The notes beneath the pieces are model-generated. The model had not been told where the DNA came from. It was given only the letters and a program-made list of their open reading frames with translations, and did not search any database. Positions 38,092-45,589 of a stretch of 64,000 nucleotides of DNA are shown here, piece by piece. Each line of letters starts with the position of its first letter. Within the stretch, counting starts at the first letter, position 1. This DNA is from Oscillospiraceae bacterium. GTDB lineage: Bacteria > Bacillota > Clostridia > Oscillospirales > Oscillospiraceae. The stretch lies in assembly GCA_015067885.1 (NCBI GenBank), contig SVLO01000007.1, forward strand, positions 1 to 64,000, read 5' to 3'. The position numbers were made by a program, and so were the translations under genes.

Positions 38092-38112
38092 GGCATATCT
38101 ACTTTGCGTAGG

Positions 38113-38141
38113 TTGCGCCGAACGCCATTCCATGCTATGCT
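38113..38141 (+). promoter_or_regulatory. Promoter of the HTH-desulfoferrodoxin gene
   Basis: TTGCGC (38113-38118), 17-base spacer, extended TGCTATGCT with -10 at 38136-38141, 25 bases before the start codon. Confidence 0.65.
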
Positions 38142-38165
38142 CAAAACAGAAAGGGCGTGGATACC

Positions 38166-38750
38166 ATGAACAGCTATGTCACCGGCGCAACCATCAAATC
38201 CCTGCGGGAAACCAAAACCCTGACCCAGGCGGAGCTGGCCCAACAACTGGGGGTCAGCGACAAAGCCGTGTCGAAATGGGAGACCGGAAAAGGTCTGCCC
38301 GACATTTCCCTGCTGCAGCCTTTGGCCGCCGCACTGGGGGTGTCCCTCATCGAGCTGATGAATGGCGAGGCAGTCGTCAATCGAAATGTGTCGGGCAACC
38401 TGATGCGCTCCAAGTTCTACGTCTGCCCCATCTGCGGCAACGTACTCCACGCCACCGGGGACGCCCTCATCAGTTGCTGCGGCATCACCCTGCCCCCTTT
38501 GGAGGCGGAGGAGCCGGATGCGGAGCACAAGCTGACCATGGAAAAAGTGGAAGACGAGCAGTTTTTCACCGTCTGCCACCCCATGACCAAGCAGCACTAT
38601 ATTTCCTTCCTCGCTTACGTCACCTCGGATCGGCTGCAGCTTGTCAAGCTGTACCCGGAGGGTGAGGCCCAGACCCGCTTTCAACTGCGCGGCCGGGGAT
38701 TTGTGTACTTCTATTGCAATAAACACGGACTGTTCAAACAGAAGATATAA
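38166..38750 (+). CDS. XRE-type regulator fused to a complete desulfoferrodoxin
   Basis: 194 residues from ATG 38166 (GTG 38157 is an alternative). Residues 1-65 are a Cro/CI helix-turn-helix (LTQAELAQQLGVSDKAVSKW). Residues 84-110 match the desulforedoxin FeS4 centre: Cys87, Cys90, Cys104 and Cys105. Residues 118-194 match superoxide reductase: His121, HPM (His138), HYI (His144), and CNKH with Cys184 and His187, the 4His-1Cys iron site. A DNA-binding domain joined to both iron centres suggests a superoxide- or redox-sensing regulator, or a DNA-bound superoxide reductase. Own promoter and terminator. Confidence 0.9.
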   Translation: MNSYVTGATIKSLRETKTLTQAELAQQLGVSDKAVSKWETGKGLPDISLLQPLAAALGVSLIELMNGEAVVNRNVSGNLMRSKFYVCPICGNVLHATGDALISCCGITLPPLEAEEPDAEHKLTMEKVEDEQFFTVCHPMTKQHYISFLAYVTSDRLQLVKLYPEGEAQTRFQLRGRGFVYFYCNKHGLFKQKI

Positions 38751-38754
38751 AGAC

Positions 38755-38788
38755 AGCGGCGGCACAATGTGCCGCCGCCGTTTTTTGC
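38755..38788 (+). terminator. Terminator after the HTH-desulfoferrodoxin gene
   Basis: Stem GCGGCGGCAC / GTGCCGCCGC around AAT, followed by TTTTTT. Confidence 0.92.
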
Positions 38789-38858
38789 CCGCATCGGGCG
38801 TTCCGCGCCTGTATTTCTGACTGTAGGGGTGGCCCCGCGTGGCCGCCCGCGCATCGGT

Positions 38859-45193: not shown

Positions 45194-45589
45194 ATGTCAA
45201 ACAAATCCATGGGCGAGATCATCAGCGCGCTGCGCAAGGAAAAAGGTATGACGCAGAAAGAGCTTGCCGACTGGTTCCACATCACCGATAAGGCCGTTTC
45301 CAAGTGGGAGCGCAACCTCGCCTGCCCGGACATCCAACTCATTCCCGACCTGGCAGAGGTGCTGGGTATTTCCGTGGAGGAGCTGTTGAACGCAAAGCCC
45401 GTGGCCCCGTCCGGTCACAGGGGCGCCGGATACCTGCTGGGTATCCTTGCCGGTGCAATTCCCCTCACCGTCGGAGTTGCCGTAACGGTCACGTCCGCCC
45501 TCGGCGCACTTGATACAGGGGCAGGATTTGCCCTGTTGGGTATTGGCCTGGCCTGCGTTGGTCTGAACGCCTTAAAGGGCAGACATTGA
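45194..45589 (+). CDS. XRE-family regulator with C-terminal membrane helices
   Basis: 131 residues from ATG 45194 (AAAGGAGC upstream). Residues 8-65 are the helix-turn-helix (MTQKELADWFHITDKAVSKW); from about 75 two hydrophobic helices follow (GYLLGILAGAIPLTVGVAV and GFALLGIGLACVGL). This architecture, HTH plus membrane tail, is common in clostridial stress or envelope regulators. No obvious target gene beside it other than the sdpRI pair on the other strand. Confidence 0.85.
   Translation: MSNKSMGEIISALRKEKGMTQKELADWFHITDKAVSKWERNLACPDIQLIPDLAEVLGISVEELLNAKPVAPSGHRGAGYLLGILAGAIPLTVGVAVTVTSALGALDTGAGFALLGIGLACVGLNALKGRH

Follow-up and report, generated by a model that had tools for sequence, protein, structure and literature searches.

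The gene at positions 38166..38750 (+ strand) of the window, by which we mean the whole 64,000-nucleotide stretch of Oscillospiraceae DNA analysed here, encodes a member of the HTH-Dx-SOR class, and with a probability of roughly 0.5 its product is an autoregulatory iron-based redox sensor. A conserved palindrome lies ahead of the gene and suggests that its product regulates its own synthesis; in such a sensor, judging from the residues around the iron, superoxide reductase (SOR) turnover is most likely weak or altered. On a bolder and less probable reading, the gut bacterium that hosts the gene would possess a transcription factor in which an Fe(His)4Cys centre of the SOR type senses superoxide, something of which we know no other instance; dedicated superoxide sensors are few, and SoxR is the one usually named. 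The dedicated switch and the altered iron site are worth testing, and the operator makes an architecture entry of 2011 directly testable with one protein and one 18-bp DNA.

A single frame of 194 amino acids carries an XRE/Cro-CI helix-turn-helix (HTH) at residues 10-64 (38193..38357, +; Pfam HTH_3, 2.3e-15, with a predicted fold of the same type), a desulforedoxin-like Cys4 site from Cys87 to Cys105 with a spacing of x13 (38424..38480, +), and an SOR iron site composed of His121, His138, His144, His187 and Cys184 (38526..38726, +). The earlier note had described this combination of an HTH, four cysteines (Cys87, 90, 104, 105) and five SOR-iron ligands in one protein, and the description was confirmed. 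The novelty that it implied was not, as the class HTH-Dx-SOR had already been named in 2011 by SORGOdb (main-text passages of PMC3116461), where it accounted for 19 of 325 SOR proteins. As in that class, the N-terminal HTH of the window protein precedes the Dx-SOR module, with the four Cys of centre I followed by the four His and one Cys of centre II. Those passages describe neither an operator nor a function for the class and do not compare its active site, nor is a function reported in the accessible parts of PMC12724145, PMC11980386 and PMC2824530. In the open-access literature that we searched, the name HTH-Dx-SOR occurs in one paper and no experiment on the class was found; the class itself is known, while its operator and active-site signature were not found in print in open-access papers. 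TrtA of T. denticola was considered as a related protein and rejected, since only an HTH is described for it in the part of PMC12724145 at hand. Compared with XRE/Cro-CI regulators such as P22 c2, SinR and DdrO, the fusion differs in that its sensor or dimerisation part is an iron protein. A second XRE HTH is present in the window at 45206-45409 (+), in a frame of 157 aa, and is 46% identical over residues 5-72.

Relatives of the fusion are common in the order to which the window belongs, with occurrences in 71 of the 394 genomes sampled and in 43 of 168 genera. The match extends to the start of the HTH in 63 of these 71 genomes; in the other eight it starts at residue 33-83, and the five of these that were examined reflect interruption by a mobile element. 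A scan of named genomes yielded at least 582 stretches encoding some relative (E up to 1e-3), of which the best 80 were retained; the closest relative among the matches listed, with 82% identity, came from a goat-caecum Oscillospiraceae MAG (JAFQHV010000010.1). In total, 107 distinct fusion sequences were extracted, including one with an internal stop (L093) and two cut by contig ends (L088 and L092). Dropped before counting were L003 and L004 (same contigs as L032 and L064), the partial L031, and L001, which is the same gene as L002. Because L069, L088 and L092 have less than 80 nt of upstream sequence, 104 upstream regions were available. The tree comprised 105 rows, without L088 and L092, and its bootstrap had not settled; the structure alignment comprised 42 sequences.

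The gene is preceded by an operator-like palindrome which, together with the start of the -35 box, reads TCTACTTTGCGTAGGTTG (38098..38115, +) and matches the footprinted motif exactly. It runs into the -35 hexamer TTGCGC (38113..38118, +), whose TTG is nearly invariant in main-clade promoters, and a -10 hexamer TATGCT (38136..38141, +) follows at 17 nt, the spacing seen in relatives; a generic promoter scan did not list this -10 hexamer. A likely ribosome-binding site, AAAGGG (38150..38155, +), is assigned from its position. Downstream of the gene, a Rho-independent terminator (38756..38784, +) consists of a stem at 38756-38778 and a T-run, and the fold of 38746-38800 has a z of -5.7.

Footprinting of the upstream regions gave a consensus layout in which the palindrome continues directly into the -35 box (TCTACGcaGCGTAGGTTG), so that the palindrome adjoining the box, the spacer and the -10 box can be written as TCTACGnnGCGTAGGTTG, 17 nt, TATAAT. 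With at most two mismatches, CTACNNNNCGTAGGTTG occurred in 82 of 104 upstream regions, against 0.05 per 104 in shuffles; CTACN5GTAG with 0 or 1 mismatch occurred in 78 of 104, against 2.3 per 104. The best TATAAT-like hexamer lay at 17 nt in 68 of 75 aligned main-clade promoters. Across the 394 genomes of the order, 23 exact operator sites were found (reversed control 2), 19 of them directly 5' of an HTH-Dx-SOR gene, and 400 genomes of the family contained 38 (reversed control 2). The union of both samples held 54 exact sites, 47 of which stood in front of HTH-Dx-SOR genes, counting one (L218) known only by its first codons before the contig end. The remaining sites preceded a paralogous XRE regulator (three sites, L212-L214), a truncated HTH-Dx-SOR remnant (L177), another such remnant followed by a flavoprotein (L171), a flavoprotein similar to the latter (L179) and, in one case (L182), nothing that was recognised. 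This palindromic operator at the promoter, nearly exclusive to the fusion gene and one paralogous HTH gene, lends good, if indirect, support to the suggestion of the earlier note that the protein autoregulates, and is what would be looked for in an XRE/Cro-CI regulator.

In the host's own assembly (43 contigs, 1.93 Mb, 87% complete), the only exact operator site is the one before the fusion gene. A role as master of a regulon in this genome was considered and rejected, as the strict site matched once exactly and once with two mismatches, against 13 reversed-control matches; by inspection, no promoter is evident around the two-mismatch site. Nor do the neighbouring genes form a conserved operon: among 1657 clustered flanking frames, no neighbour family occurred at more than 14 of the 107 loci. 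At 12 of the 107 loci, a downstream frame on the same strand, presumably of ThiF type, was noticed, and it begins 3-10 nt away in the eight of the 12 cases for which distances were listed. One genome (G230) contains two HTH-Dx-SOR genes (L186, L192), each with an exact operator in front.

The flavoproteins at operator sites carry a CxxCxxC...C motif. In genome G382, an exact operator directly precedes one of them (L179), a 138-aa stretch of which matches FMN_red (1.2e-16); in G204 (L171), the operator is followed by the truncated HTH remnant, with the flavoprotein close by. Both genomes also carry a full HTH-Dx-SOR gene, and the flavoprotein may be a second target. C. difficile CD0828 was considered as a parallel, in the role of an FMN-dependent donor, and dropped; PMC11980386 concludes that CD0828 probably does not serve as the donor of Sor. 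In genome G337, a variant operator, CTACGGAGCGTTGATTGC, is found in front of another gene (L236, contig C9), which we take to encode a chloramphenicol-acetyltransferase-type protein, and this occurrence may be due to chance.

The iron part of the fusions differs consistently from that of stand-alone SORs, for which 30 loci of 36 high-scoring rows among the sampled relatives served as controls. Compared with classical desulfoferrodoxin or 2Fe-SOR (1dfx, 2ji1; C. difficile Sor), the fusions add the HTH and lack the Lys before the first His, which is present in 2 of 107 fusions (L046 and L110, where Glu-Lys-His is kept) and in 30 of 30 stand-alones. They also lack Trp190 (0 of 107 against 30 of 30) and have shorter spacings: x13 in place of x15 within the Cys4 site (107 of 107 against 30 of 30 by alignment; a text pattern instead gives 13 in 102 and another value in five), x16 in place of x19 (106 of 107 against 30 of 30) and x39 in place of x41-42 (106 of 107 against 29 of 30). 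New in the fusions are Lys142 (106 of 107, against 1 of 30 stand-alones) and a Lys or Arg at position 186 (84 of 107), where all 30 stand-alones have Leu. Accordingly, the window protein, with Ala-Glu-His, x16, x5, x39 and x2, departs from the classical centre II motif (E)(K)H(x)19-27H(x)5H(x)40-63C(x)2H given in the accessible part of PMC11980386, and its Cys spacing of 13 departs from the classical centre I motif C(xx)C(x)15CC. In the SOR of D. baarsii, the Lys forms a hydrogen bond to the peroxo intermediate (figure legend in PMC2824530). In archaea, an SOR without the Lys in its natural form is active, and its T24K variant (4brj) is among the solved structures. The altered active site may therefore mean either that catalysis is lowered or that other basic residues have taken over, and the new Lys142 and Lys/Arg186 might be the replacements of the catalytic Lys.

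All five SOR-iron ligands are kept in 85 of 107 fusions. Of the metal sites, the Cys4 site is kept best, its columns holding Cys in 107, 107, 107 and 104 of the 107 sequences. His121 has been lost in one clade of 20 members, which was recovered in all 200 bootstrap trees (support 100/76) of the 105-row tree, and four of the 20 also lack His144, Cys184 and His187. The clade retains all four Cys and the HTH, and its operator has co-diverged; to judge from these alignments, the regulatory part outlives the SOR site, although this clade may simply have changed its function. Of the earlier suggestion that the protein senses or removes superoxide at DNA, sensing remains plausible, while removal has become less secure, with the Lys absent in 105 of 107 members and iron ligands missing from one clade.

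The leading alternative, which we consider possible but less probable than a sensor, is a functional superoxide reductase that regulates how much of it is made, with the HTH as a thermostat that adjusts the amount to need or iron supply. In its favour is the retention of all five ligands in most fusions; this would be expected of a protein whose iron chemistry, perhaps enzymatic, is still of use, and counts against the sensor, as do the two fusions that retain Glu-Lys-His and the activity of the archaeal SOR without the Lys. So does the host genome, in which no second SOR was found besides the fusion (assembly 87% complete), so that the fusion might be the working enzyme there, and in which the single exact operator belongs to its own gene, making the protein itself the regulated product. 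This alternative would have the lost Lys replaced by Lys142 and Lys/Arg186, whose near-restriction to the fusions agrees with it; we regard that part as equally tentative. Against it stand the near-universal loss of the Lys, the loss of ligands in a clade whose HTH and operator persist, and the frequent company of a canonical SOR (E below 1e-9), which would often make the enzyme redundant: such an SOR is present in 49 of the 71 genomes that carry the fusion, all 71 being counted, and in 137 of 323 without it (p 6.7e-5, kinship ignored).

In the iron-based sensor that we prefer, the desulfoferrodoxin part would dimerise, and C. difficile Sor is indeed mainly a dimer according to the accessible part of PMC11980386. 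The dimer would set two XRE HTHs on the palindrome at the gene's own -35 box; oxidation of the Fe centres by superoxide or O2, or loss of iron, would alter DNA binding, and this would in turn reset the amount of fusion protein. The SOR iron probably still reacts with superoxide, be it for sensing or in a slow or altered turnover, and the Lys-assisted catalysis of stand-alone SORs would be missing, because the loss of the Lys is near-universal. Assuming a transcription start some 7 nt beyond the -10 box, the dyad lies near -43; this and the poor -35 box (TTGnnn) would fit a CI-like activator contacting RNA polymerase, and a repressor blocking the -35 box is almost as likely. That sensing is the main job of the protein, with the state of its iron controlling binding, we regard as an even bet. 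More doubtful is the evolutionary proposal that an SOR iron site was turned from enzyme to sensor, giving a compacted one-gene redox switch with the Lys nearly always gone and a single dedicated operator.

An iron-centred autoregulator might instead respond to NO, H2O2, O2 or the supply of iron or zinc, detected at either the Cys4 or the open Fe(His)4Cys site. The preservation of the Cys4 site even where the SOR site decays would suit such a signal, and NO binding at an SOR site features as a title in the SORGOdb reference list. We nevertheless consider this unlikely, since the SOR ligands are kept in the main clade and nothing in the flanking frames of the 107 loci names another signal.

The operator can be followed beyond the fusions. 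When a looser operator pattern was searched for in 60 genomes, the host's own included, 27 sites were found in 23 genomes: 19 before an XRE regulator whose membrane C-terminus bears IGGADGPTAI, three before HTH-Dx-SOR and five before neither. The 19 loci (L142-L143, L145, L148-L155, L157-L163 and L168, one of them, L152, known by its C-terminal part only) come from same-genus relatives. This regulator resembles the fusion in its HTH type and in its operator, CTACTTTTCGTAGGTTG, which is practically identical, and differs in having no iron domain; its C-terminus shows a weak likeness to part of the OAD_beta model (E 0.072). Since the two share only the HTH type, the operator site travels with the HTH and not with the iron domain. 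In the sister clade without His121, all 20 of 20 HTHs have Arg40 and Cys44, against Thr40 in 84 of 87 elsewhere, and in most of the clade G(T/G)CGA replaces GTAGG as the right half-site. Half-site and HTH residues 40/42/44 thus change together in this one clade; as a single event on the tree, the co-change is only supportive of binding by the HTH. That the HTH is a structural relic and the palindrome is bound by another regulator is very improbable, given a site found before two kinds of gene with only the HTH type in common and otherwise nearly exclusive to HTH-Dx-SOR, and given the strong conservation of HTH residues around the recognition helix, even though HppE and related iron enzymes appeared among the fold matches with their N-terminal part aligned to the fusion HTH. 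The HppE-type iron epoxidases, whose enzyme part is of the cupin type, are an earlier example of a mononuclear-iron enzyme that carries an HTH-like domain, with a chemistry unrelated to that of the fusion.

Finally, the interrupted genes share a common break point. In five genomes (G071, G295, G337, G257 and G160; loci L225-L229, L230-L233 and L235), the fusion frame begins in the middle of the HTH, immediately after the end of a recombinase-like frame and always at the same recognition-helix codons (SKWE). The recombinase-like frame, which we take to encode a large serine recombinase, was extended in four genomes, where it measures 511-591 aa. The absent 5' half of the G071 gene was located, together with its operator, on the same strand at a distance of about 10.5 kb, and it ends just after SKWERG. 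A mobile element thus seems to use the recognition-helix codons of the fusion gene as its target.
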